Positions 1 through 31,520 of a stretch of DNA of 36,773 bases are shown in pieces. A model generated the notes under the pieces. It searched no databases. It had not been told where the DNA came from and saw only the letters and a list, made by a program, of their open reading frames with translations. The position numbers and the translations under genes were made by a program. This stretch comes from Oehlia diaphana. Lineage: Eukaryota > Glomeromycota > Glomeromycetes > Glomerales > Glomeraceae. Location of the stretch: assembly GCA_003833135.1 (NCBI GenBank), contig QZLH01000130.1:98645-135417 (forward strand). Direction: 5' to 3'. The stretch's first letter is position 1; every line of letters starts with the position of its first letter.

Positions 1-234
1 GATCCCCCATCTTTGGTATTGATTTGCTGATTATATAAATACATTTCGAATCAAGCTTTTCTATTTTAGTACGATCGGCAACCAACAAATCTTTTAGTGT
101 TTTAATTAAAATAAAATATCAAAAAAATTTTTGGCCGAGCACTCCCTTTTGCTATAAGTCCGCCCAAATATTAATATTATTATTGGAAATTATTTGTTAT
201 CATTTTTTTTTTTATTATAAAAATATTATTTTAG
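1..234. other. Left edge, no gene assigned
   Basis: AT-rich sequence before the Sel1 relic. On the minus strand, bases 1 to about 100 form a short frame without stops that reads KTLKDLLVADRTK and onward and runs off the left edge. It could be an exon of a gene lying mainly outside the window, but about 34 codons without a recognised motif is not enough to call it. Bases 225-234 end in TATTTTAG, which could be the acceptor of the following Sel1 exon on the plus strand. Confidence 0.3.
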
Positions 235-3631: not shown

Positions 3632-4060
3632 TTAATCTGTTTTAATATCTAAATAATTAAATAAACAAAATTAATTTTCACAAAAATAATTTGCAAGATT
3701 AATTTTTTATATATCATAGTACATACCTAATGACCCAAAATCTTTAATTACATAATCATTCAAATCTTCAATTACAAGAATTTCATTTGCTTTTACACTA
3801 GCTTGTGAATCTTCACTTTCAAGAATTTTATTCAAATTTTTACTGGCATTTTCATCTGTTTTAATATCTAAATAATTAAATTAATTAATTAATTTCACAT
3901 AAATAATTACTTTTTATATATTTATAGTATATACCTAATGACCTCAAATCTCTAATTATATAATCATTCAAATCTGAATGACTTGCATGATATGCTTGTG
4001 AATCTTTACTTTCAATAATTTCATTCAATTTTTTACTAGTAAAATCAAGCAAGCGACTGG
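3632..4060 (-). repeat. Tandemly duplicated C-terminal exon plus intron
   Basis: The end of the large kinase exon (SKKLNEIIESKDSQA...DLNDYIIRDLRSLG, ending at donor 3935) and its intron (3868-3934) are repeated downstream. The second copy is exon 3727-3867 (SKNLNKILESEDSQA...DLNDYVIKDFGSLG) with intron 3649-3726. Both introns begin GTATRTACTAT and end ATTATTTAG, followed by the same ATATTAAAACAGAT, which reads D-I-K-T-D. After the second intron this is followed at once by TAA (3632-3634). The 141-nt duplicated exon is a multiple of three, so the frame survives. Before the duplication the protein probably ended right after the first DIKTD. Confidence 0.8.
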
Positions 4061-7000
4061 TATAACATGCTTGTGGATGAGATTCAGCAGCAGGATTGTA
4101 ATACTGCCCAATTGGTGCATTTATAAATTCCATAATGTTGCTTTTTAATTCTTCATCAATATCTTTAATTTTCTTTTCATGTGGAAGAAGAATCCACCTT
4201 TCAAAAATAATTTTAACTTCTTTAGAAGATGGTCTTTTTAATGGGTCTTCATCCCAACATTTTTTCATCAAATCCATATAACATTGTGGAGTATTTTCAA
4301 TAATTTCTGGTCGTTCACCTTTACAAATACTTAAACTAAGTTGAAGATCATGTGCTCTATTTTTAAATGGCGTAACTCCAGATGTAAACTCCCACATAAT
4401 CATAGAAAAACTATATATATCACTAGCTGGAGTGTAAGGTTTACCTCTTAAAACTTCAGGTGCCATAAATGGTATAACACCATAAATACTATCTTTTTCT
4501 AAAAAAGATTTTACAGGTTGACTTAATCCCAAATCACTAATATAAACTAAATCCATCTTATTCTCTTCATTTATATTCCCATTTAAAATATTGCCATCAT
4601 GAAAATCACAATGAATAAGGTTTTTTTCATGCATTCTAGTAAGCCCAAAAATAATTTTATATAACATATGCAATTTCTGTTGCCAATTATATTTAATTAC
4701 TTCTGGCAAATTTCCTCTTAAATTACCTTTATTTGCATAATCCATTACTGCCATATAATTTAATGTATTCGGATTTTTTGTGAATCCATATAAATCAATA
4801 ATTGCAAGCCATGAACTAAAACCTGAAAGACATCTCCACTATAAAATAAAACTAAATATTAGTTTAAATAAATTTATAATTGAAATTAAAACAAATAATG
4901 CATTATCATACTTCTTCTAAAAATTCATATAAATTTTCATTCAAATTATTGACACATTTAAGAACTACTTCCATATTTTCTATACTATTTACCCAAATAG
5001 CTTTATATATAGTACCAAATCCTCCTTTATCAAAATATTCAACATTTTTAAATTGATCATAAGGGATCCATTTTAATTTTTCTTCAAGAATAAATTTATC
5101 CAAAATTTCATTTTCACTATTTCCAAATCTATAATTTAAATAGTTAATGAAAAAATTATTAAGGTTTATATTAAATTTAAAACTAAAATAAATACCAATA
5201 AATACTTACTCTAAAATTTAAATAGGAATTTAATAAATATGAATTTTAGCCTTTGTATAAATATATATAATAACTTGGCTATAATTATAACTTACCAACT
5301 AAATAAAATAATTTTTGTATAAAGGATAAGAATTTAGTTTAAATTATATACAAATATTATATAAATATATAATAATAGACGGAATTAAATAAATAACTTA
5401 CAAGCTATATTATTAAATAAATTTTTTAATTAAAAAATTCAGTTAGTTTAAATTATATGTAAATATTTTATAAATATACAATAATAGAATTAAATAAATA
5501 ACTTACAACTTACCATCTAAAGAAAATACAAAATAATTTTTTAGTTAGATTATTATATAAATATATAATAATAGAAATAAATAAAAAACTTACTCTCTAT
5601 ATTATTAAATAATATTTTAAATAAGGAATTTAGTTAGTTTAAATTATATGTAAATATTATATAAGTAGAATTAAATAAATAATTTATAACTTACTATCTA
5701 AAGAAATTACAAAATAATTTTTTAAATAAAGAATTTAGTTAGTTATATTATATGTAAATATATAATAATAGAATTAAATAAATAACTTACAAACTATATT
5801 ATTAAATAAATTTTTTATATTAAATAATTTTTTAAATAGGAATTTAGTTAGTTTAATTATATGTAAATATTATATAAATGTGTAATGATAACAGAATTAA
5901 ATAAATAACTTACCCACTATATTATTAAATAATTTTTAAATAAGAAATTTAGTTAGTTTAAATTATATGTAAATAAATATATAATAATGGAATTAAATAA
6001 ATAACTTACTCTCTATATTATTAAATAATGTTTTAAATAAAGAATTTGGTTAGTTTAATTATATGTAAATAAATATATAATAATGGAATTAAATAAATAA
6101 CTTATAACTCACGCGCTATTTAAATAAAGAATTTAGTTAGAATATTATATAAATATGTAATAATAGAATTAAATAATAACTTATAACTTACAATCTGAAA
6201 GAAATTACAAAATAATTTTTTAAATAAAGAATTTGGTTAGTTTAATTATATGTAAATATTATATAAATATATAATAACAGAATTAAATAAATAACTTACT
6301 CACTATATTATTAAATAATTTTTTAAATAAGGAATTTAGTTAGCTTAAATTATATGTAAATATTATGTAAACAAGTAATAATAGAATTAAATAAATAACT
6401 TACTCTCTATTATTAGTAAATAATTTTTAATAAAGAATTTAGTTTAATTTGTATGCAAATATTATATAAATATGTAATAGAATTAAACAAATAAGTTATA
6501 ACTTACGAACTATTTAAACAAAGAATTTAGTTAGTTTAAATTATATACATATTATATAATGATGTAATAATAGAATTAAATAAATGACTTACTCCCTATA
6601 TTAAGTAATTTTTTTAATAAGGAATTTAGTTAGTTTAAATTATATGTAAATATTATATAGGTAGAATTAAATAAATAATTTATAACTTACTATCTAAAGA
6701 AATTACAAAATAATTTTTTAAATAAAGAATTTAGTTAGTTAAATCATATATTTATATAAAAATATGATATTGTAATTATATATACAACTTACACTCTATA
6801 TTATTTAATAATTTTAAATAAAGAATTTAGTTAGTTTAAATGATATTTTAATTATATAAATATGTAATAACAGAATTAAATAAATAACTCACTTGCTATT
6901 TTATTAAATAATTTTTAAACAAAGAATTTAGTTAGTTTGAATTATATATAAGTATTGTATAAATAATTAATAATAGAATTAAATAAATAATAACTTACGA

Positions 7001-10000
7001 TCTAAAAGTAATTACAAAATAATTTTAAATAAAGAATTTAGTTAGTTTAATTATATAAAAATATTATTTAAATAATTAATAATAGAATTAAATAAATAAT
7101 AACTTACGATCTAAAAGTAATTACAAAATAATTTTAAATAAAGAATTTAGTTAGTTTAATAAATATTATATAAATATATAATAACAGAATTAAATAAATA
7201 ACTCACTTGCTATTTTATTAAATAATTTTTTAAACAAAGAATTTAGTTAGTTTAAATTATATGTAAATATGTAATAATAGAATTAAATGAATAAATTATA
7301 ACTTACTATCTAAAGAAATTACAAAATAATTTTTAAATAAAGAATTTAGTTGTCTAAATTATATATAATAGAATTGAATGAATAACTTATGACTTACCAG
7401 CTATCAAATAATTTTTTTTTAAATAAAAAGTTTAATCAGTTTTAAATTATACGCAAATATTTTATAAATATATGGATAATATAATTAAATAATAACTTAC
7501 CAGCTATATTGTTAAATAATAGTTATTTAAATTATATACAATTATTATATAAATACGTAATAATAGAAGTTAAATAAATAACTTACTTGCTATATTATTA
7601 TGTATTTTTTTAATTAGTTGGTTTAAATTATATGCAAATATATATAAATATGTAACAATAGATTTAAAATAAATAACTAATAACTTACGATCTAAAATGA
7701 ATCACCGAATAATTATTCAAATAAAGAATTAAATTATATATAAATATTATATAAACTATATTTAAATGAGGGAAATTAACCAGTTACATAATTTCCAGTC
7801 AAGCTTCAAAACTGGATTGTACCAGAATTGGCGCAATTTCTTACCCGGTTATTTTCCCCCTGTTAAGATTAGCAACACTCATATAATAATAGAAATAAAT
7901 AACTTACATGCTATATTAACAAATAATTTTTTAAATAAAGAATTTGGTTATTTTAAATCATATGTAAATATTATATAAATATTTAAAATAGAATTAAATA
8001 AATAACTTACCATCTACGAAATAATATTTAAATAATTTTTAATTAGTTAATTAGTTTAAATCATGCAAATATTATATAATAGAATTAAATAATAACTTAC
8101 CCCCTATATTATTAAGCAATATAATAAATAAAGAATTAGTTAGTATAAATTGTGCATAAATATTATGTAGCATATTATCATATGCCACTGCAATTAGTGC
8201 CAAAAATTAAACCCTGTGATTAATACCCGAGTATTATACATGGCATAAAATTCTTAATTCTGGTAGAAAAAGGCTAATTTTGACCATACACCTCATGAGC
8301 ACTATTCAATTTTAAAACTGAGGTTTTTGAGTAAGACCTGATACTGTATGCAGTGGCATATGATAGGATCATGTCAATCATGGCAGACTGTTATTTTTGC
8401 CAGTAAAAAGGGTGGAATAAAATATTGAATATGTATAAAAATAACATTAAATATTTAAAAAATTAAACTTAATTATAAAAAATGTTAAAATTAGGCATGA
8501 TCTTGAGTGGCATGTATAATGATACAGTTATTGAATAGGAAAGGTAACATATAAGTCAGCCCTACAGGATGACTGAACTTTTACCCATCCACAACTATAG
8601 TATATTCTATAAATATGTATAGAATTTAATAAATATACTTACATACTATATTATTAAATAATTTTTTAAATAAAGAATTTAGTTAGTTTAAACTATATAA
8701 AAATATTTTTTAAATATATGATAATAGAATTAATAATTAACTTACTAGCTATATATATTAAATAATTTAAATAAAAATTTAATTAGTATAAATTGCATGT
8801 GAATATTATATAAATGTATAATAATAAATTAAATAAATAACTTACTCTCTATATTACAAAATAATTTTATAATTTTTTTTTAAATAAAATATTTAGTTAG
8901 TTTAAATAATATGCAAATATTAAATAGATATATATGTAATAGTAAATTAAATAAATAGCTTACTATCTAAAATTAAATTACCAAATAGTTTTTTAAACAA
9001 GAATTTAGTTAGTTTAAATTACATGTAAACATTTTAAATTGTATGTAAATATTTTATAAATATTTGATAAAGAATTAAATAAATAACTTACTCCCTATAT
9101 TAATAAATTAATTTTTTAAATAAAAAATTTAGTTAGTTTAAATTGTATACAAACATTATATAAATATGTAATAATAGAATAAATAAATAATTTAACTTAC
9201 CAACTAAGATAAATTAATAAATAATTCATTAAATGAAGAATTAACTGATTTAAATTTATATAAATAACATAAATACAATATTATATAACTTACACCCTGT
9301 AATATTATTAATTAATTATTAGATATAAATATTTACAATGAAAGTATATACTGAAAATAATATATTACTTACAATCTAATCATTTGAATAAAAATATAAT
9401 TAATTTAAGTTATATGTAAGTATTAAAACTATAAAGTATGATTAAAAACTGTAACTTGCCTTCTATAATAGAATTAATTATAAAGTAGTTATTTAAATAG
9501 TTACTGAACTTTATAAAAATATAGTAAAAAATAAATAACTGATAACTTACTAACTATAGTATTTTATTAATCATTATATGAATTATTTTAATTATATAAA
9601 AGTAAGTAATTTCATTATTATTCAATTACAAGATAACCTATTGACTTACGGGCTAAATTATTGAAGATAATTTATGTAACAGATAAGGTATAGTTGTTAG
9701 TTTAGATTATATGTGAATATCACGTATATTAAATTATTTATAAATAATTTTCTTAACAAAAAAAACTTTTAATATTACAATCATTTGGTGTATTGTACTT
9801 ACCTATAGACTCCTCTCTACTGCTTCCTTCAAATTCTTCAGTGTTACTGGAAACTAGTTCTATTATATTGCAAGTTTGTTTAATATATTTATTTATTTAC
9901 AATTATTTTTTTTATGATTAAATAAAAATTTTAATATTTCAGTCTTTTTAGTATATTATATTTACCTTCAGATTCTGTGTCATAACACAAAGCTGATTTT

Positions 10001-10080
10001 ATTATTTGTAAATTTGTTTTAAAATTTGAATATTATATATTCATGCTATAATCTTTACCTTTACCAATGCATTGACCCAT
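3632..10080 (-). CDS. TKL-like protein kinase split by 39 3-nt microexons
   Basis: Inferred exons in gene order: 10065-10080, 9966-9992, 9803-9859, thirty-nine 3-nt exons between 9652 and 5296, a 1-nt exon at 5210, 4912-5128, 3935-4838, 3727-3867 and 3632-3648. They total 1497 nt (498 aa plus stop) with phases matching at every junction. Residues 1-5 are MGQCI, with ATG at 10078-10080; this fits N-myristoylation at Gly2 and possible palmitoylation at Cys4. Residues 34-73 come from the microexon array. The kinase domain spans about 99-365: glycine loop DKGGFGTIY (106-114), Lys130 in VLKC, catalytic HCDFHDGN (from 221), SDLG (Asp247), APE (271-273) and DIYSFSMIMWE. This resembles the large TKL-like kinase family of Glomeromycotina; all catalytic residues are present, so activity is likely. 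The substrate is unknown. The C-terminal tail is lengthened by a tandem exon duplication. The kinase part is near certain; the upstream exons rest on splice-site and phase logic. Confidence 0.78.
5210..5210 (-). other. Predicted 1-nt exon (A) restoring frame
   Basis: On the minus strand TTTTAG is followed by a single A and then GTAAGTATT. The 39 upstream triplets all keep phase 1, while the kinase exon that starts at 5128 needs phase 2 (A, then TTT GGA AAT). One extra base is exactly what is required. Codon 73 (GAA, Glu) would then be built from three exons: G from the exon at 5296-5298, A from here and A from 5128. Skipping this base would shift the kinase domain out of frame. Confidence 0.6.
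6961..7159 (-). repeat. Most recent one-unit duplication in the array
   Basis: Bases 6961-7050 and 7070-7159 are identical over 90 nt at an offset of 109 bp, and each contains the same microexon ATC (6999-7001, 7108-7110) with both splice sites. This is a fresh copy of one intron plus 3 nt, showing how the array grows by one codon at a time. Longer-range copies also exist: about 125 nt at 5620-5744 match 6616-6740 with about one substitution (microexon ATA in both). The GTGAGT-type unit with microexon CAA at 6893 recurs at 7207, three units away. Confidence 0.8.
7769..7862. mobile_element. Small inverted-repeat insertion in a microexon-array intron
   Basis: The intron between microexons 7908 and 7689 is 216 nt instead of about 100. 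The extra, less AT-rich segment starts GAGGGAAATTAACCAG and ends CCCGGTTATTTTCCCCCT, so its ends are imperfect inverted repeats of about 16 bp. No coding capacity. It looks like a MITE about 94 bp long. I could not define a target duplication. It leaves donor, branch region and acceptor of the host intron intact. Confidence 0.5.
8168..8605. mobile_element. Nested inverted-repeat insertion in a microexon-array intron
   Basis: The intron between microexons 8643 and 8101 is 539 nt. The unit sequence is interrupted at about 8168 and resumes at about 8605. Inside, TATCATATGCCACTGCA at about 8177-8193 recurs inverted at about 8351-8367, giving a MITE of about 190 bp. A related inverted motif (TATCATTATACATGCCACT read on the minus strand) lies near 8505-8525, so a second, nested or chimeric element is likely. 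No coding frame. The host splice signals are undamaged. Confidence 0.5.
9803..10080 (-). other. 5' exons of the kinase gene (MGQC N-terminus)
   Basis: Three exons precede the array. Exon 1 (10065-10080) starts ATG GGT CAA TGC ATT G, and the +4 G is favourable for initiation. Exon 2 (9966-9992) and exon 3 (9803-9859) follow after introns of 72 and 106 nt. All three end in phase 1. The joined N-terminus starts MGQCIALCYDTESEE and continues acidic and Ser-rich to residue 33. A second donor six bases further in exon 1 (GTAAAG repeated in tandem) would add two residues without shifting frame. The minus-strand TATATAG just before the ATG could be the acceptor of a 5' UTR intron. Confidence 0.6.
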
Positions 10081-16489: not shown

Positions 16490-18560
16490 ATTTTCAATTA
16501 ATGCTTCGATTGCTTGCATACTTATGGGAGGACAAAATATTAAAATGGTAAGTTGCACGGAATTTGTTAGCTGGTCGTCTATCATTTAACGGATTCACAA
16601 ACTTTATTTTTTTAAAAATTTTTTTTTTACTCCTACTCTTTTTCAAATTATAAATTTAACAAAAAAATATGTCCAAGCAATTTTTTCCGAATTTAAGTCG
16701 AAACTATATTGAAATTTTGGAAGATGATGAATATTATGATACTACTATTGAAGTTGGTGAAGACCCAAATGTAAAAATATTCCGTGCACACATGATCATC
16801 CTGTGTTACCGTTCTCCATTTTTACGACGAACTTTGATTTCAAGTAGAAATAATAACAATAATATCGTAGCTCACATTAAATTGCCAAATGTCTCACCAG
16901 AAATTTTTCAAATTATTTTATTGTAAGTTATATTACTAATACTTATTGTATATTAAATATTTTTATATTTATTATATTTTTTATTATTTAGATACATTTA
17001 TGGTGGTTTTATTTCGTTAAATGAACAAGAACCTTCAGAAATATTAAAGGTTTTGGTCGCTGCTGATCAACTACTACTTCAAGAACTAATTGATTACTTG
17101 CAAACATATTTAATTGAAAATAAATCTGAGTGGATGGAACAATATTTTGAACTTATTTACCAAGCAGGTTTTCAATCTAATTCTTTATTAGAACTTCAAC
17201 AATTTTGTACAAATTTCATGGCTAAATTTCCTGAGAAAATATTTAAATCACTTAATTTTACCTCGCTTTCAGAAAAATCGTTTGTTTCGCTTATTAAAAA
17301 AGATGATTTACAAATGAAAGAAATTGAAATTTGGGATCATGTATTAAAATGGGGACTTGAAAAAAATCCTACACTTCTTCCAGATCCTACAACTTGGTCA
17401 GATGATGATTTCAAAATGATGGAAAATACTTTGCAACATTGCTTACCTTTAATTAGATTTTTTAGTTTATCTTCGGAAGATTTCTTTCAAAAAGTTCGAC
17501 CTTATAAAAAACTTTTAAAATGTCAACTTTATGAAGAGTTATTAGAATCATATTTAAATCCTAATAGTGAACCAAATGATAATATTTTACTTCCTCGATT
17601 TAGAAATATTGATGGAATTATTGATTCGAAAATTGTCAATTTAAATATTGCTTCTTTAATTTCTAGATGGATTGATAAAATTGATATTAAAAGCAAATAT
17701 TCTTATGCAAGAGAATTATATTTACCATATAAATTTAAATTACTCTTAAGAGGAAGCCGAGATGGATTCACTCCTAAAAAGTTTCATGAATTATGTGATG
17801 ATAAACTTTATACTGTAACATTTATTAAAGTGAAAGGAACAGAAGAAATTATTGGAGGATATAATCCTTTAGAATGGAAATCAGGTGGTGAACATGCTAT
17901 ATCCAAAGATAGTTTCATATTTTCTTTTAAGAATAAAAATAATTTTAAAGATCTGATTTTAAGTAATGTAATAGATATGAATCGTGCAGTGTATTATGGT
18001 AGTAATGTTGGACCTGCGTTTGTTCAGGATATTGAGATTTTTACAAGATATGGTGGTGATTCAATTGAATATGATTATTGTCAATGTAAACAATATTCTT
18101 ATGAAAAGAAGATAAGAGATACGGAAGATTTGTTTTCAATAGAAGATTATGAGGTATTTCAAATTATAAAGAAAGATGATTAATACTCAAATAATTTACT
18201 TTAATTTTATTTGTTTAATTTATATTTAAATCAATTTTATCATTTATTATATTTTAGAAAATATATTTAAATTTAATGTAACTATGGATTCACTAAATTA
18301 GTGACATTTTATTTACTAAAACCATATTACTGTATTGCATACCAGTTTGTGCATTTGGTACTGTTTGTAAGGTGTAAGCCATAAATAACTAACAATATTA
18401 AATAAAATTTGATAATATAACACAAATATTTAATTAATATTTTGACGCACAATTTTTACTGCGCATTTACAGAATATATGAATTTTTCAATTTATTACTT
18501 TAGTCATAAATTAATATTCTTAAAATTTAATAAATTGGAGAATTTACTATAATTTTCCTA
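16490..18560 (+). repeat. Segmental duplication copy A (BTB-TLDc locus)
   Basis: This segment matches 29505-31520 in the same orientation. The match covers about 170 bp upstream of the ATG (including CACGGAATTTG, AGCTG and TCG landmarks and an ATGGTAAGT), the whole gene with its intron in the same place, and about 370 bp after the stop, where CTTAAAATTTAATAAATTGG is shared. The coding part is most similar. The copies are about 13 kb apart with the Argonaute gene between them. Confidence 0.85.
16669..18183 (+). CDS. BTB-BACK-TLDc domain protein, 481 aa
   Basis: Two exons, 16669-16922 and 16992-18183, separated by a 69-nt intron (GTAAGTTATA to TTATTTAG); joining them gives LLYIYGGFISLNE across the junction. 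Residues about 1-110 are a BTB/POZ domain (DTTIEVGEDPNVKIFRAHMI, FLRRTL, FQIILLYIYGG), about 125-230 a BACK helical region (KWGLEKNP), and about 295-478 a TLDc domain (SLISRWID, YLPYKFKLLLRGSRDGF, FHELCDDKLYTV, IIGGYNPLEW, FIFSF). BTB-BACK proteins usually act as Cullin-3 adaptors; TLDc domains are linked to oxidative-stress protection and V-ATPase binding. This combination is very abundant in Rhizophagus-type fungi. The reading frame is intact, unlike its paralogue at 29713. The substrate is unknown. Confidence 0.92.
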
Positions 18561-20590: not shown

Positions 20591-22267
20591 GAGAGGCGAC
20601 CTTATTATCGCCATTATACTGTTTGGTTCATGTATTCCCCCTTTTTCGTATTTTTAGTTCCTCATTTTCAAATTTCTGGTTCATGTCTTTCCCCTTTTTC
20701 TCATATTTTTCTCCTTTCGTATTTCATTTACTTTAACAAGAAGATTGCTTGTAGTAATTGGATTTCTGTCATGTCGTGATATAGTGGAGGTTTTCCCATT
20801 TTTTTTTAGGAATCTGACATCCTACAATTTTGCCATTTCCAAATGGAGTGAAGATAAGAAATCAATAGTAATGAAACGAGATTCGAATATTTTTTGGTGT
20901 AACTGTAAATAATGTTAGAAAGTTCTTTGGGCACGAGTTTATGGAAGATTAAGTAAATCAGATGGCTTTCATACCAAAAGATCTTATATTTTCATTACAT
21001 GTAAGTGAACTAAGTGAACCTACGTTATAAAGGGGGTGATACAAATGAATCATCAGTGAATTTACAATATAATAATCAATAATTCATAATGTATTAATGT
21101 ATGTAGCTTGAAGAACATATATTATATATTTTTGTTGGAATAAATCAGATTGCATTATAATAAATCTTAAACATAATAATATCTTAATATTGTATTTACA
21201 AATCAAACAGTGGTTATCATAGTGATTTCAATCGCAGATTTTGTTTTATTTTCACTTTCCTTTTCAAATTTTGTAATTATATTAATGTTGGTACTAGTTT
21301 ATGAAAAATGTTTCTCTTTAATAACTTAACAAGAATCCAACATTTGAATAAACTATGAATTGATTCAAGATATATCTACAATTTAAATTATCGTATAGGA
21401 AAAAATTCAAAATAATATAATATTTCAAGAAATTCAATATAAGGAACTGAAATAGATTTTCTTTCAACTTCCAGTTATAAAAGAAAAGTTAATATTATAA
21501 CAAAAAACAAAAAGATATCAGTGGAGAATACAATAATTACTAGATAATTTTTTCTGTTCATGAATTTTATTGGTCCAATAAATTAATTAATTTTTTATTT
21601 ATTTGTTCATTTTTTTTTATTTTTTATTTATTTCATGTACTGTATTTAATAATATTTTGCCTTGTATGTTAATTCATAAACAATTGCAAAAGCAAGCTCG
21701 CCAGCAGCCTTCTGTTTCTTTACACGCTATTACCAACTTTTTAATAGTAAACTTTAGTTAGAAATTGATGAAGCAACAAAAAAAAAATGATGTTGAACGC
21801 TATTTTGAAGCTAATGATAGATAAACAAAAATACAGACGGTTTAGAAAATTGCTATATCTTATTCGTTATATCGCTCATAAAATTTTAATATAATATCGA
21901 AATTAAAGTGTGAATTATAAAAAAAAAATTTTCAAACTCCAAATTTTATTAGAAATTACCAAAAAATATATATGTTTAAATATATTATAATACAGTGTTT
22001 ATTAGAACGAAAGATTTTAATTGAGCCACTAAAATTGCTTTTAAAAGCGGAAAGGTTTAGATCGGTAAATCGATGCTAAATTGATGATTGATATTTTTCA
22101 TAGATAATACTACAATATGATTTCGTAATTCATAAAAATTTCAGTGATTTTCACGACTTGATAATAAACAGTATAATGCTATTTCAACATATTTCTCAGA
22201 TTTCTATTAAAGGCTCATTATGTAAATTCTTTTCAGTGAAATCATCTTAGCCCTATAAAAAATAAAT
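20591..22267. other. Intergenic, no gene seen
   Basis: A region with T/C-rich patches (about 20630-20720, repeated CCCCTTTTTC next to TCGTATTTT or TCATATTTT) followed by ordinary AT-rich DNA. No frame of note and no RNA gene recognised. The CCCCTTTTTC repeats at 20640 and 20690 are a short imperfect direct duplication, each preceded by GGTTCATGT. Confidence 0.45.
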
Positions 22268-22545
22268 GTCCAGAAAATGTCTACGAAAATGTCCGGAAAT
22301 TGTCCAGAATAAATCTGGAGTGTCCAGAAATAGTCCGGAAAATGTCTATTTTTTGCTTCAGGATTGATACTTAAAATTTTGACATATCCAGAATTTGTCC
22401 AGAATTTATCCAGAATTTGTCCAGTATAAAATTTTGGACAAATTCTGGACAGATAAACCTGGACAAATTCCGGACATAGTAAAAATTCAGAAAATTTGAA
22501 CTGGACAAATTCCGGACATAAAAAAATTCTGGACAAATTCTGGAC
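22268..22545. repeat. Foldback repeat built of TGTCCAGAATT motifs
   Basis: About 278 bp. The left half carries GTCCAGAA or GTCCGGAA motifs every 15-20 bp and the right half carries the reverse complement (TTCTGGAC, TTCCGGAC). The outer ends align as inverted repeats over roughly 40 bp (GTCCAGAAAATGTC, then ATGTCCGGAAATTGTCC, against GTCCAGAATTTGTCC, then ATGTCCGGAATTTGTCC). The whole could fold into one long hairpin. Short open frames inside are by-products of the repeat. A foldback transposon or MITE with internal subrepeats is likely; no target duplication could be fixed. Confidence 0.6.
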
Positions 22546-24279
22546 GCTACTTCCAATTTATATCAAAAAATAAAAATTTCCATTATTAATATATGGTTAT
22601 AAAAAAAAAAAAATATTCGTATCACCAAAGCCTATTGTTATTACTAAAAATCGATAGAATTATTACATAAGTATTAGAATGACGCCAGTTACCGGGAAGC
22701 AAAAAAAAGTAAATTTTTTTTTATAACCGGAACTAACTATTACGAATTAATATTAGTAAATGTCAGTTACCGAATATAAAGAAAGGGCTAAGTCCGATCT
22801 ATTGTTGGAAAAAAACAATTTTTAAAATAATTCAAATGAAAAAAAAAAAAAAATTTACCGAAGCTGTAAAAAGAAAAGTCACTCAGGTCTGTTGTTATCG
22901 GGTTATCGGGAATAAAAAAAAATTTGAAAAAATGCTTACTAAAAAATTTAAAACATTACTAAGAAAAATCGGGAAAAAAAAATCTATACTAAAAAAGAAA
23001 ATATCGATAAAAATTACTAAAACTAAAAGGAAAAGAATATCAGAAAATTACTAAAAGAAATTATATCGTTAAAGACAAAAAATATTACTAAAAACTAAAA
23101 TAGAAAAAAAAATCAGTAATAAGAAAAATACTAAAAATACTAAAAAAAATAAAATTCTTAGAATTTAATGGTATTCTTTAATATATATATTAATTAAAAT
23201 AAAATAAAGGAATAAACTAAAATCGGGTTTTAAAAACTATTTAGAAAAAAAAGAATAAAAAAATTAGTATAAACCGAATATTTCAGGTCAACCCGACTGC
23301 TGGTCAACTCGATCATATGTAGCTTACGATACGTAAAAAGCTTAGTATAATATAACAGATAAGTTAATTGGTAAATTAAGTTTTAATAAAATGTGATTCC
23401 ATCTTTTTTTTCCTCGTATAGTTAATTATTAATTGCGTTAAGATCAATTTATAATATTAACATTAATAAAGTGCCGTTAATAATATATTACGTGACTATA
23501 ATTAATCTAAATCATTATTTTTTTATAAAAAAATTTAATAATTTTGTAATTGTTAGTACGTAACGTAATAATTTTAAGAATTCTAACGTTTTTTATGGAT
23601 TTTTATTGACTTTCTAAATTTTATTTAATAGAATTATTGCGCAAATAATTAAGAAAGCTCATAATAAGAATATGCTGTTACCACAGTGTTACCACAAAGA
23701 CAAGAAAGAAAATCAATAGTGTATCAGTATAAAATATTGCATAATGTTTTCATTTAGTTGAACTAAATGCAGTAATACCTCACTATAAAATTGCCGATTA
23801 AACGATTCTACAGTGTCTAAATCGTTTAGTTTTTTTTTTTTGGTTAGTATCGCACTAACGCTTAATGCGCATTTCTTCATTAATCTTTTAAATTTAGTAC
23901 TTTAAAGCACATTTAAGAAATATATAAAAATATAACAAAATTTTTAAATTTACATACTAACACAACACTATTTGTAACAGTTGGCAGTTATATTCTATAA
24001 GGCCAATTTCCGATAAATATAAGAAAATCCTTTTTTATTTTGGTTTAAATACCATATACAATATTTTTAACCCGAAATAAATTAATAAATAAAATTTAAA
24101 ATTTAAAATATATTTTTTTGAATCAAATATCGATATGATTATATATTTTTTATAAAATAAAGTAAGGTAAATTTTTCATCAAAAACGAGTTGTCACATAA
24201 AGTACATAACCTAAAAGAGAAGTTTGTTATAGAAATGAGATAATTGGGATAATGGGGATAATTGACATTTGAAATATCT
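22546..24279. other. Intergenic with A-rich low-complexity sequence
   Basis: From about 22800 to 23170 the plus strand is dominated by degenerate ACTAAAAA-type repeats; the lysine-rich open frame there is low-complexity noise. At about 23771 TGCAGTAATACCTCACTATAA resembles the kind of end seen in pogo/Tigger-like elements, with a nearby short inverted pair (AAACGATT and AATCGTTT, 23800-23828), but no second end was found. Nothing else could be supported. Confidence 0.45.
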
Positions 24280-27200
24280 TTAATTTACCTTTCGTAGCTC
24301 GCCCTTTACTTCTCCAATTGTGGTCGCGGCACTTTTGTCGCCTTTGGATGATTCCGTATCAGTATCACGGTAGGGTGAGTGAATTTTTGCCCTAGCAGCA
24401 GCTAAATGGGCGTAATATACCGGAGGTACCTATTTAAATACAATATGATATTTATCATTTACTATATATAATGATATAAAATGTAATTTAAAACCTTACC
24501 AAAGAGACTGCACGTGTACAACGCGCATATACATAACAAAGATTATAAGATAACATTTGTAACCTAAATTATTAATTATATATTAGTTATTTATATAATT
24601 TATTATTAAATTAGATTAAATTGAATTACCTATTTGCATCAAACCCGTTTTCGTCATATAAAACACGATAATGGGCTGGTCGAGACGTCCCCAACAGTCC
24701 AGCATGACTTAATAAATCTGATAAGGATTTAAAGTCATTTAGGAATGCTACAGAATTTTATATACATCAATGTACAATTTAATTACTTACAAAAATCAAA
24801 TTCAAATGGATGTGTAATGTCCATATCAACAACAGTGCCAGGAATACAATTTCCCGTTCTATCGCCGCCATGAATTGGGAAAAAACGTGTGTGGTGTCTC
24901 TTCTGCACCACAACAAACGTGATATTGGGTTTATAATTAGCCTCAAGACTTCGACACGCGGCTGTAGTAATTAAATAGATTAACGAAAAGCATGAATAAA
25001 TCTATCGACAAGATGACTTTCAATCACTTCTCCATAAGAATAATATGTTTCAATTACCTCTAATCGCGGTTAGTTCACACTCTAGTACCTCCATAAATTG
25101 ACTCTCCGAAACTCCGTCTCGGTAAAATAAAATTTTTTTGGGTTTTAACCCACAAGTTTGATAAAATGCTTTTAACGATTCTTTAACCATGCTTTCCAAA
25201 TCTATTATTATTTCGGTACCGCCGGTTTGAACCCTAAGTGACGCTGCATAACGTGATGCCTTAACGTTCATGGAACCACACAGGGCAGCATAAGATGGAC
25301 TTTCGTCATCGGCTGAAGAGATGCAAAAAACATAGATATATTAGTAAAATAATTCGTGTGAAAAAAAAAAAATTACAATTTACCAGCCGCCGAAGGATGA
25401 GTAACGTCTGCGCCCATCAAAATTGTAGGATCATCTATCAAAAATTGAATATGTTCGGGAATGAGGAATGAATTCTCTCCTCCAAGTTTAACGTTCATCT
25501 TTAGGCAAACATTCGCACAATATTGTTTTTTGGGGTTTTTCATATGTATACTTTGGATACACTGTGTTGCGACACCAATAGCTGTTTCGCCAATACGTTT
25601 AATTTCGGCATATAATTCTGTTCCAGCATTTGGGAGAATACAAAGAATAAGCTGTGGTTTAATTATCCTCGCCTTTTCTTTAGCATTCAAGTAGGCTTTG
25701 TTTAATGATTCCTCAATATTTCCTATAGGATTTCCGCGGCATATAGGAGGATCTCTATCTAAAATGTTCTGTTATAGATGATTAGAAACTTGAATGATTC
25801 ATATACTGTAAAAAGGGTTGATATCATTTAACTTACCATTCCAGTATCTTGACATGTATTAACTAATTCTCTCACAAAAAACTTAATAGCTTGATCAGGT
25901 AAGTGCTTATAATTAGAAAAGACCATAACTGACCATGAGCTGAGCGTGGCACCATTTGCTACTTTTTTATCTCGTAAATTCCACGCTCCACCATTCGGCC
26001 GGACGCGGTGCTCCCTTGACGACTGATGGTATTGAATTGTTGGAGTAGGGAGAATCCTAGCGTTCACCTATAAATTCTTGTTATTAAAAATATTCCTATG
26101 ATGCAACAATAATATTTCAAACCTACCACAGCCATATCTTTTGATACTTCCATCCCGAATTGTTTAAGGTATTCGTTACCTTTATAATTTAATATATTGA
26201 GGCCATCTTGGATCTTATTTGCCCGAAAGTTCGGATTTTGACGAGTAAATTTCATCATTTCATCTGTTTGATTCTTATCCAATTTCCGTATATATCGTTG
26301 TTCCTATTATACGAAATAATAAATTTTTAATAAATACATTTCTTATAATCATATGATATCACTAGATGAATATATAATTACCGGAATTACGTCACAAACT
26401 TCTAATGGAAGATAAACGGTTTTCCTTACGACAACACAAGGAAGAAATGGGTATATTAAACGTTTATTGAATTGATTTTGAAAATAGGTTTTCACATCAA
26501 TCCTACTACCGTCCTTATCAAACGTAGTATGAGAAGCTGGAGTCTTAGTTAATTTCTCAATCTTAAATTTTCGTCTATTTTCCGGGTTATGATTATCTCT
26601 TATTTTAAGATTTTTTATTCTCTTCTCAACTTTTTGACGGTCTTCATCTAATAATCCTTTACGTAGATCATTGGGAGATCTAAGATCCAATATTTTTGCA
26701 ACCATCCGAATAAGTGGACCATTTTCATAGAAAGCGGTAGCACTTAAGTCTATGTTTATCATCATTTTGCCCCTTGTAGGACGTGCTGATTGGTAATACC
26801 CCTGCCAAGCCTCAATACCCCCAAAGAGTGATCTAGCTCCATGCGAAGTGTAAAATGAATTACGTACAGTAGGATGTTTTGCAGAAATCTCGTGACTGAT
26901 AATGATGTCCATTGCCGTTATTGCTTATTACATAAATATGATTAGAATACATTATGATATTCATTCTTATTTAAGAAAGAAAGAAAGGAAAAAACTTACC
27001 CATTTGGCAATTGTCAGTCATCCTGCTTTTTGCGAATAAAAATTGAAATAGTTCCTTCATGTCAATATCTCTAGCTTTTCTTATTGTAATTCTGAAATCT
27101 TCAGGTGGACGTTTTCTTGCCACGGGCACGTTACCTTCCTCTAATTTTACCTAATTATAATAATTAAACTTAACGTTAATAATTTCAAAGCATAAAAAAG

Positions 27201-29504: not shown

Positions 29505-31520
29505 AATTGAAAATTTTTCAATTACAGTAATACTTGGCTTGTATACTAATTGTATACTTCACAACGATGAACAAAATATTATAATGGTAAGTCACACGGA
29601 ATTTGCCAGCTGATCGACATCCAAACATTTAATGGGATTCGCAAACTTTTATATTATTAAAAAAAAAATTGTTTTCTCTCTTATTCTTTTTCATATTATA
29701 ATTTAACAGAAAATGTCCAAGCAATTTTTTCCAAATTTAAGTCTGAACTATATTGAGATTTTGAATGATGATGAATATTGTGATATTACTATTGAAGTCG
29801 GTGAAGATCCAAGTGTAAAAATATTTCGTGCGCATATGATTATTCTGTATTACCGTTCTCCATTATTACGACGAACTTTGGCTTCCAACAAAAAGAATGA
29901 TAATGGTGCCTTGTCTCACATTAAGTTACCAAACATTTCACCAGATATTTTTCAAATTATTTTAAAGTAAGTTTATATTACTAATTCTTATTAGTATTAT
30001 AAATATTTTATATTTGTTACATTTTTTATTATTTAGATACATTTATGGTGGAGTTATTTCATTAAATGAACGAGAACCTTCAGAGATTTTAAAAGTTTTG
30101 GTCGCTGCTGATCAACTACTGCTTCAAGAATTAATTGATTATTTGCAAACATATTTAGTTGAAAATGAATCGGAGTGGATGGAACAATATTTTGAACTTA
30201 TTTATCAAGCAAGTTTTCAATCTAATTCTTTATTAGAACTTCAACAATATTGTACAAGTTTCATGGCTAAGTTTCCTGAAAAAATATTTAAATCACTTGA
30301 TTTTACCTCACTCTCTGAGAAATCATTGATTTCGCTTATTAAAAGAGATGATTTAAAATGAAAGAAATTGAAATTTGGGATCATGTATTAAAATGGGGAC
30401 TTGAAAAAAATCCTACACTTCTTTCAGATCCTACTGCTTGGTCAGATGATGATTTCAAAATGATGGAAAATACTTTACAACATTGTTTGCCTTTTATTAG
30501 ATTTTTTAGCTTATCTTCGGAAGATTTCTTTCAAAAAGTTCGACCTTATAAAAAACTTTTAAGACTTCAACTTTATGAAGAGTTATTAGAGTCATATTTA
30601 AATCCTAATAGTGAACCAAATGATAATATTTTACTTCCTCGATCTAAAAATATTGATGGAATTATTGATTCAAAAGTTGTTAATTTTAATATTGCTTCTT
30701 TAATTTCTAGATGGATTGATAAAATTGATATTAAAAGCAAGTATGCTTATGCAAGAGAATTATATTTACCATATGAATTTAAATTACTCTTAAGAGGAAG
30801 CCGAGATGGATTCACTCCTAGAAAGTTTCATGAATTATGTGATAACAAACTTTATACTGTAACATTTGTTAAAATAAAAGAAACAGAAGAAATTATTGGA
30901 GGATATAATCCTTTAGAATGGAAATCAAATGGTAAATTTGTTAAAACCAAAGAGAGTTTTATATTTTCTTTTAAAAGTAAAAATAATTTTAAAGTTTCAA
31001 TTTTAAGTCGTATAAAAGATTCGAATCATGCGTTGTTTTGTGGTAGTAATGTTGGACCTAAATTTGGTACTGATGATTTTGATATGATTGCGATGGAAGA
31101 TTCAAAAGAATATGAATATTTGAGATGTTTACAACGAAGTTATGAAAAAAAATAAGAGATACGAAAGATAAGTTTTCAATAGAAGATTATGAAGTATTTC
31201 AAATTATAGAAAAAGATGATCAATACTCAAATTAAATTTCTTTGCTTATTTAAATTCAGTTGATCAAACTATATGGGTTCACTATATAAGAAGCATTTTA
31301 TTTATTAAACTATTTTATTGTATTTCGCTGCAGTTTACTTGTTAATGACTCAAATATTAAATAAAATCTGACAATATAACATAATACAAATGTTTAGTGT
31401 TTTGACATGCAATTTTTACTATACATTTTCAGAATATATGAAATTTTCAAATTATTGCTTTAGGCGTAAATTAATGTTCTTAAAATTTAATAAATTGGAG
31501 AATTAACATTTTCCTATACT
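29505..31520 (+). repeat. Segmental duplication copy B (BTB-TLDc locus)
   Basis: Partner of 16490-18560, same orientation. Upstream landmarks (ACAAAATATTATAATGGTAAGT, CACGGAATTTGCCAGCTG), the two-exon gene and the downstream AAATTTAATAAATTGGAGAA are all conserved, with more change outside the coding part. The upstream ATGGTAAGT and the TTTAACAG directly before AAAATG could mark a 5' UTR intron; in copy A that acceptor AG is missing. Confidence 0.85.
29713..31235 (+). pseudogene. BTB-BACK-TLDc paralogue with two frameshifts
   Basis: Exon 1 is 29713-29966 and exon 2 starts at 30037 after a 70-nt intron at the same position as in the copy at 16669. The protein matches that copy closely through BTB and BACK up to IKRDDL. 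There one base is missing compared with the paralogue (DDLQMKEIE), so the frame hits TGA at 30359-30361. The correct frame resumes at 30358 (MKEIEIWDHVLKWGL) and runs through the TLDc domain. A second 1-nt loss in an A-run at 31145-31152 gives a stop at 31153-31155; the natural C-terminus (FSIEDYEVFQII) continues in the next frame, and the original stop codon is changed to CAA, so reading would end near 31235. Sequence error in A-runs is an alternative explanation. Confidence 0.85.

Follow-up and report, generated by a model that had tools for sequence, protein, structure and literature searches.

Schistosome microexon genes, whose products are secreted and carry a signal peptide, contain runs of symmetric small exons, mostly of 6-36 nt, which encode variable segments and generate variation by exon skipping. 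Introner elements are families of many near-identical introns with target-site duplication, and at recursive splice sites an AG stands directly before a GT, so that the exon has zero length. In the available part of one report, the aphid bicycle genes are described as fast-evolving putative gall effectors with many small exons, almost all internal exons being in phase 2, and a megacycle gene is described with more than 100 microexons in one gene (PMC9168663). Exons of one or three bases appear in the accessible sections of other reports: a 1-nt exon in APC11 of Arabidopsis (PMC4674806), 1-nt microexons in plant APC11 and VPS55, the VPS55 donors being GTRAGT (PMC8831610), and a 3-bp exon in homothorax of Drosophila (PMC7392893). 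The present analysis concerns a 36,773-nt stretch of the genome of the glomeromycete Oehlia diaphana (assembly GCA_003833135.1, contig QZLH01000130.1, positions 98,645 to 135,417 of the forward strand), referred to as the window. Its minus strand carries, inside a kinase gene, an array of 39 units in which exactly three bases lie between an acceptor AG and a donor.

Judged from sequence patterns across the genome, this array is very probably a real and constitutively spliced coding segment composed of one-codon exons, representing the hypervariable part of a large kinase family. The structure itself, its presence in many paralogs and the avoidance of stops across neighbouring triplets were established by computation. 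An earlier note on this stretch had described a single gene; the scope is larger, and covers a large family with hypervariable cores.

The array and its kinase gene

All 39 units of the form AG-NNN-G[TC][AG]AG[TC] that the earlier note had placed on the minus strand were found at 5296-9652, with first bases running from 9652 down to 5298. They account for 39 of the 42 minus-strand sites of this motif; outside the array the whole window holds 3 such sites on the minus strand and 1 on the plus strand. Unit spacing is 79-128 nt, with two exceptions of 542 and 219 nt. The donors are 34 GTAAGT, 3 GTGAGT, 1 GCAAGT and 1 GTAAGC, the last of which the earlier note had not named. The units are diverged tandem repeats, and AG and donor remain constant while the three bases between similar introns vary freely. 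The parts of the array are as follows.

5296 to 9652, minus strand: array of 39 putative one-codon (3-nt) exons (splice-site motifs, in-silico splicing, paralog tests)
Triplets 1-8, minus strand, low coordinates: 9650 CCC, 9551 TTA, 9460 AAG, 9373 ATT, 9294 GGT, 9201 TTG, 9092 GGA, 8964 ATA
Triplets 9-16, minus strand, low coordinates: 8846 AGA, 8746 CTA, 8643 TAT, 8101 GGG, 8011 ATG, 7908 CAT, 7689 ATC, 7587 CAA
Triplets 17-24, minus strand, low coordinates: 7501 CTG, 7398 CTG, 7307 ATA, 7207 CAA, 7108 ATC, 6999 ATC, 6893 CAA, 6793 AGT
Triplets 25-32, minus strand, low coordinates: 6691 ATA, 6593 GGA, 6507 TTC, 6404 AGA, 6300 TGA, 6192 ATT, 6113 CGC, 6010 AGA
Triplets 33-39, minus strand, low coordinates: 5914 TGG, 5791 TTT, 5695 ATA, 5594 AGA, 5514 ATG, 5402 CTT, 5296 TTG
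9201 to 9652, minus strand: conserved leading triplets (positions 1-6), reading A-L-K-D-W-F, with position-specific introns common to paralogs
5514 to 9094, minus strand: hypervariable core, about the 7th to the 37th triplet, with a triplet order unalignable between paralogs
8104 to 8642: array intron of 539 nt (unit u11 spans 542 nt where about 100 is usual), with about 440 foreign-looking bases by eye
7692 to 7907: array intron of 216 nt (unit u14, 219 nt), with about 120 foreign-looking bases by eye

The foreign-looking insertions in the last two introns are perhaps mobile-element fragments; the splice sites flanking them are intact.

The gene around the array was assembled by in-silico splicing from the following exons.

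10059 to 10080, minus strand: predicted exon 1, encoding MGQCIGK and ending in phase 1 (sequence and in-silico splicing)
9966 to 9992, minus strand: predicted exon 2, 27 nt, phase 1 to 1 (AG before, GTAAAT after, open frame)
9803 to 9859, minus strand: exon 3, 57 nt, rich in E and S, ending in phase 1 directly before the array (in-silico splicing)
5210, minus strand: 1-nt exon (A), restoring the kinase frame (in-silico splicing; recurs in paralog arrays)
4912 to 5128, minus strand: first kinase exon, FGNSENEIL..GGFGTIYKAIW (splicing, homology, domain search)
3885 to 4838, minus strand: last exon, with the remaining kinase domain and C-terminus (PF07714)

Exons 1-3, the 39 triplets, base 5210 and the two kinase exons together give a coding sequence of 1395 nt including the stop, and not the 1497 nt proposed earlier, although both are divisible by three. 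The predicted protein has 464 residues with no internal stop, and its PF07714 kinase domain scores 136.1 bits against a Pfam cut-off of 23.1. The insert predicted in the mRNA is 118 nt long, starting ..GAGTCTATAG-CCCTTAAAGATTGGTTTGGG.. and ending ..ATGCTTTTG-A-ATTTGGAAATAG. When exon 3 is joined straight to 5128 the frame is broken, and 3n+1 nt are required after exon 3. In-silico splicing bore out two further claims, that the exon preceding the array ends in phase 1 and that a 1-nt exon A at 5210 restores the kinase frame. An alternative donor of exon 1, 6 nt upstream, leaves the phase unchanged. The motif MGQCI[GC]K is also the N-terminus of the Rhizophagus irregularis model P0035 and is present in the paralog loci L041 and L046. 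An exon similar to the E/S-rich exon 3 precedes the array in several paralogs, and its phase-1 end can be seen by eye in L036, L038, L041 and L051. The nearest relatives are kinase-like proteins of Rhizophagus, the best being P0001 of R. irregularis, which is 95% identical across 43% of the 130 residues used as query. Read through the array, stops number 0 in phase 1, 1 in line (TGA at 6300) and 5 in the third frame.

Stops are avoided across neighbouring triplets

The genome (108.8 Mb, 1672 contigs) was searched for paralogs and patterns. With the first 120 residues of the protein, the best 150 of 1658 first-look candidate places were scored; 74 of the 150, the window's own included, reached E <= 3.4e-10, and in most of them the match begins where the kinase exon does. 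Thirty loci, again including the window's own, were fetched with about 1.5 kb upstream each, and in 28 a cluster of at least 3 units lies upstream of the kinase match on the same strand; no unit cluster was seen within this distance in the other two, L003 and L030. Units were then called by a splice-site model with chaining in the window and 20 longer loci (L032-L051), giving 596 units. Arrays of at least 12 units are present in 17 of these 21, with 15 to 55 units each. The arrays have common ends, mostly A-L-x-D-W-F at the start and a small residue followed by F-E at the end. A 1-nt A exon with donor GTAAGT or GTAAGC follows the array in 13 of the 16 arrays examined, or in 14 when L038 is counted, where it was found by eye with donor GTTAGT; among the same 16, none was seen in L046. 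L040 was excluded from this and the branch-point analysis, and from the comparison of core triplet alignments. In L032 only the last part of an array is present, behind a neighbouring kinase gene, with a 1-nt exon that is apparently T instead of A; by eye it has the look of a truncated copy.

If the triplets are joined in phase 1, each codon takes its first base from the end of one triplet and its other two from the start of the triplet that follows. Stops at such junctions were counted in 587 units, which form 47 chains in the window and in 19 of the 20 longer loci; L032, with a single unit, gave no junction. Junctions across gaps above 140 nt were excluded, and 2000 shuffles of triplet order within each chain served as the baseline. 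In the predicted phase only 2 of 540 junctions form a stop against 22.5 +/- 3.5 in shuffles, and none of the 2000 shuffles was as low. The other straddling phase is not depleted (73/540 vs 66.7), and reversing the triplet order gives 27/540. The result holds in the variable middle alone (1/388 vs 15.8), in a first pass with the strict motif (2/477 vs 19.0 +/- 3.3) and without the window's own array (2/504 vs 21.3). TAA, TAG and TGA were observed 1, 0 and 1 times against 6.6, 8.0 and 7.6 expected, whereas the non-stop codons TAT (37 vs 40.0) and TGG (37 vs 24.5) are not low; the depletion is thus specific to stops. Among the 17 arrays of at least 12 units, 15 are wholly open in phase 1, with L035 and L047 as exceptions; in shuffles the number of open arrays averages 4.7 and never exceeds 11. 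This avoidance of stops in a single phase and between direct neighbours only leads us to conclude that the triplets are very probably spliced to their neighbours and translated.

The same counts bear on a combinatorial use of the array, in which the exons would be real and each mRNA would contain a variable subset, forming an isoform generator like the schistosome microexon genes. Any subset would keep the frame, and skipping would be tolerated, since stops between triplets two apart amount to 24/493 (5%). However, stops are avoided between direct neighbours only: at distances 2, 3, 4 and 5 they number 24/493, 22/450, 22/412 and 12/379 against 20.9, 19.3, 17.7 and 16.3 in shuffles. Skipped forms are therefore seemingly not what selection sees, the lack of avoidance at distance 2 indicates that exon skipping is not the rule, and the combinatorial reading is considered unlikely.

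Translation in line (phase 0) would make a codon of each triplet, with AGTAA as a 5-nt exon ahead of the kinase exon. In this reading stop triplets are few (3/596) and 14 of the 17 arrays are open, and two public gene models of R. irregularis, P0028 and P0035, read arrays in this manner. On the other hand, TGA triplets occur in the window, L043 and L044, the neighbour-specific avoidance of stops belongs to the other phase, and the exon leading into the array closes in phase 1, both here and in the four paralogs named above. The second unit of the 14 arrays with the common start (TTG, TTA, TTT, TCA, TCG, TCT) also differs between the two readings: in phase 1 its codon is Leu 13 times and Phe once, whereas phase 0 would give Leu 6, Ser 5 and Phe 3. 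In-line translation is accordingly quite improbable.

Signals of splicing point in the same direction as the stops. A genome-wide search for three successive units with 3-nt exons gave 855 overlapping matches against 11 for a reversed-pattern control, while 4-nt exons gave 0 against 3, these two sizes being those compared. Triplets that would form an AG/GT donor by starting with GT number 7/596 against 84.3 expected, and those that would form an acceptor by ending in AG number 9/596 against 20.8. Of 563 introns, 384 have the branch-point motif CTRAY at 12-62 nt upstream, whereas shuffled sequence gives 107; the introns are related and hence non-independent. The median array intron is 96 nt long (528 introns kept), and acceptor subtypes associate with triplet classes. 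Together with stop avoidance among the paralogs and the recurrence of the 1-nt exon, the finding of arrays with 3-nt but none with 4-nt exons and the avoidance of triplets that create splice sites support the central proposal of the earlier note, one-codon exons between full introns in phase 1, with a 1-nt exon that restores the kinase frame. Its statement that the third codon positions resemble those of other genes holds in part: in the units of 20 loci they are T 58, G 26, A 13 and C 3%, T-rich and C-poor like other genes, but poor in A and rich in G beside three stretches of ordinary coding sequence from the window (A 37-45, G 7-11, C 3-4%). The middle base of a triplet is T or G in 505 of the 596 units (85%). 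TA-initial triplets number 1/596 against 16.7 expected, which is beyond what stop avoidance explains.

A non-coding satellite within one long intron, with units that carry AG-NNN-GTAAGT by chance, would agree with the relatedness of the tandem units and with the composition of the window, which is three-quarters A+T, so that splice-like motifs are common. Such a satellite, however, would have no reason to avoid stops in a single phase across neighbouring triplets, to keep exactly 3 nt where 4 nt gave no match, to shun GT-initial triplets or to recur elsewhere with different introns, and skipping the array together with the 1-nt exon breaks the kinase frame; we regard it as highly improbable. 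We give almost no chance to recursive splicing, in which the units would serve as ratchet points for taking out a long intron step by step, with no triplet left in the mRNA. In a setting of otherwise short introns, about 4.6 kb could plausibly be removed in this way, and AG lies near GT in every unit, but the triplets that would juxtapose AG and GT as ratchet points do are the very ones avoided, and stop avoidance points to translated triplets.

Several points weigh against reading the triplets as one-codon exons in phase 1. The stop-free phase-1 reading of the window's array, which the earlier note had put forward with the in-line TGA at 6300 and the stops in the third frame, was confirmed together with these; it is also reached in 23% of shuffles of triplet order, so that a single array is a weak test and paralogs were needed to decide. 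The frame alone does not demand the array, because exon 3 joined through base 5210 to the kinase exon stays open without any triplet. P0028 and P0035 read their arrays in line, with an apparent 5-nt last exon. Stops within triplets are likewise few (3/596 vs 19.0 expected), although this holds for TA-initial triplets generally. Beyond stop avoidance, the amino-acid make-up of the core shows no difference from shuffled order (P 0.18). A separate set of nine loci gave 0/56 stops against 2.3 (P 0.04), and it adds little because its control phase was low too (3/56 vs 6.4, P 0.04). Some individual loci have a damaged or odd look: L039 is without the acceptor of the 1-nt exon, stops occur in L035 and L047, and L032 is truncated. 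In L040 and L046 the longest chain is not directly beside the kinase exon match and may belong to a neighbouring gene. Finally, about 40 introns around 3-nt exons are sterically demanding, and we know of no precedent at such a scale.

Hypervariable cores and arrays elsewhere

Across the paralogs the core varies from about 6 to 46 codons and differs in sequence. Its introns were compared by edit distance, excluding pairs more than 15 nt apart in length, since alignment identities that ignore gaps are inflated in A+T-rich sequence. Between paralogs the first six introns are position-specific, with a mean distance of 0.266 at the same position and 0.370 at different positions against 0.402 for shuffled introns. 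Core introns are approximately equidistant: whatever their separation, those of one gene stand at 0.246-0.260 from each other, and those of different genes at 0.274, where shuffling gives 0.402. They are related but mostly not near-identical. Pairs below 0.10 make up 5.8-6.8% at separations 1-3, 1.5% at 16 or more and 0.7% between genes, so close relatives are only mildly commoner among near neighbours. The order of core triplets could not be aligned between paralogs, even for L037 and L047 (z 0.5), whose kinase DNA is 91.7% identical, and the best of 105 paralog pairs reached z 2.9.

Some linkage between triplets and introns remains, as the rates of identical triplets exceed the 5% expected by chance. 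Introns of one gene that differ by at most 5% (16 pairs) carry the same triplet in 19% on the upstream side and 38% on the downstream side, and among the 116 same-gene pairs that share all 24 nt upstream the triplet is identical in 18%. Linkage is thus partial, and triplets evolve far more quickly than their flanking introns. Among 17 same-gene intron pairs differing by at most 5%, all three triplet positions often differ, including the mostly silent middle position, whose identity is 0.71 on one side and 0.53 on the other; positive selection on point mutations alone was therefore rejected as the explanation, and involvement of unit turnover or recombination is more likely. Block duplication was rejected as the main source of core diversity, with 16 repeat words of three triplets against 14.6 +/- 4.3 in shuffles, although some exists (3 four-triplet words vs 0.9). 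Introner insertion with 3-nt target duplications likewise found no support: of 257 pairs of triplets that flank a core intron, 8.2% are identical, within the 5-12% seen at larger separations.

Arrays were also found away from this family of introns. A second one (locus L052, contig C38, 73491-75791) has 22 consecutive one-codon exons, one of them (donor GTAAGG) read by eye, followed by one apparent 6-nt exon. It is open in the same straddling phase, as are 23% of its shuffles. On the same contig, further matches to the three-unit pattern extend up to 89747. A third array (L053, contig C66, 45300-46500) has the triplets CAT, ATG, ATT, ATT, ATA and ATA after a coding exon ending in phase 1. The L053 introns are alike, at least one pair being identical in body, and the array runs into a stretch of N. 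Among themselves the introns of L052 and L053 differ by 0.17-0.18, while their distances from the kinase-core introns (0.393 and 0.363) are near the shuffled baselines (0.414 and 0.397). By this comparison, the one-codon-exon architecture appears to have arisen more than once, or to have spread and then lost intron similarity.

Public relatives of the kinase, 43 homology matches in all, were examined as well. P0028 and P0035 contain stretches that fit the triplet vocabulary in line at +35.9 and +30.0 bits, the best other window among about 15,000 of the 43 relatives scoring -0.2 bits, so one-codon-exon arrays probably exist in R. irregularis too. Both are probably ab initio predictions that follow the wrong phase. 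No protein containing an array in phase 1 was seen among the 43. The arrays suggest why public models of the family break here: 7 of the 43 begin with MSKFG or MSNFG at the position where the array ends, and 2 hold array-like residues in line.

Elsewhere in the window, the plus strand has two mutually similar TLDc open reading frames (ORFs; PF07534) at 16957-18183 and 30352-31155, the first also with a BACK domain and the second copy split across overlapping reading frames at 29966-30361 and 30352-31155. Argonaute exons (ArgoL1, PAZ, Piwi) lie on the minus strand at 25373-26924, and short repeats of 11 bp (AAATGTCCAGA, TCCAGAATTTG) occupy 22264-22424 within a minus-strand ORF at 22207-22557.

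Proposed splicing, significance and known systems

Under the preferred reading, the spliceosome would remove about 40 short introns, joining 39 one-codon exons and the 1-nt exon between the N-terminal exon and the kinase domain. Removal would presumably proceed by intron definition, most simply in order, with the upstream exon growing at each step, and splicing would be sequential and constitutive. Each unit would add one codon without shifting the frame. Because the exons are exactly three bases between phase-1 introns, units could be gained, lost or exchanged without frameshift, and the segment could grow and be rewritten. Turnover of the core may take place through duplication and recombination within related introns, together with fast triplet change, while selection for intact splice sites and against stops would maintain a long and rapidly rewritten segment. 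The segment itself may be a tolerant linker or a diversified binding surface beside the kinase; as a linker it would be neutral, kept by drift and ratchet-like growth. Quite tentatively, the arrays could be a hypervariable-peptide device, with dozens of kinases each carrying a random-like, intron-shuffled segment beside the kinase domain for recognising varied partners (self or non-self, plant hosts, microbes) and introns acting as recombination spacers that permit rewriting without loss of frame.

If confirmed, these arrays would challenge the notion that splicing cannot cope with one-codon exons in a row, and bear on how the spliceosome handles 3-nt exons in series by sequential intron definition. 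They would also represent a new architecture for hypervariability, in which introns turn every codon of a segment into a separately shufflable and frame-safe module, in a kinase family of what is presumably a plant-root symbiont, and gene models of the family would need revision. No comparable one-codon-exon array was found in open PubMed Central papers, among the matches listed.

As in microexon genes, several internal exons of at most 30 nt have splice sites on both sides, 39 in the window and 596 in all. The schistosome genes differ in exon size, as the arrays here consist of 3-nt exons, and stop avoidance favours constitutive inclusion over skipping. Introner elements likewise involve many related introns, which here are all approximately equidistant; the array shows no 3-nt target duplication, and its introns are exactly 3 nt apart. 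With recursive splicing the array has in common an AG close to a GT within a long stretch, but here three bases lie between them and are apparently retained and translated. As far as the available parts of the reports describe them, the bicycle genes and megacycle are alike in fast evolution and in unusually many small exons mostly of one phase; that phase is 2, whereas the window array is in phase 1, with exons of exactly 3 nt in a kinase gene. The cases of APC11, VPS55 and homothorax, from similarly partial sources, indicate that exons of 1 nt and 3 nt can be spliced, although they stand isolated there and dozens stand in series here. Genes with two or three adjoining very small exons, in what is available of their descriptions, resemble the array in adjacency, while here about 40 one-codon exons follow one another in a hypervariable family.

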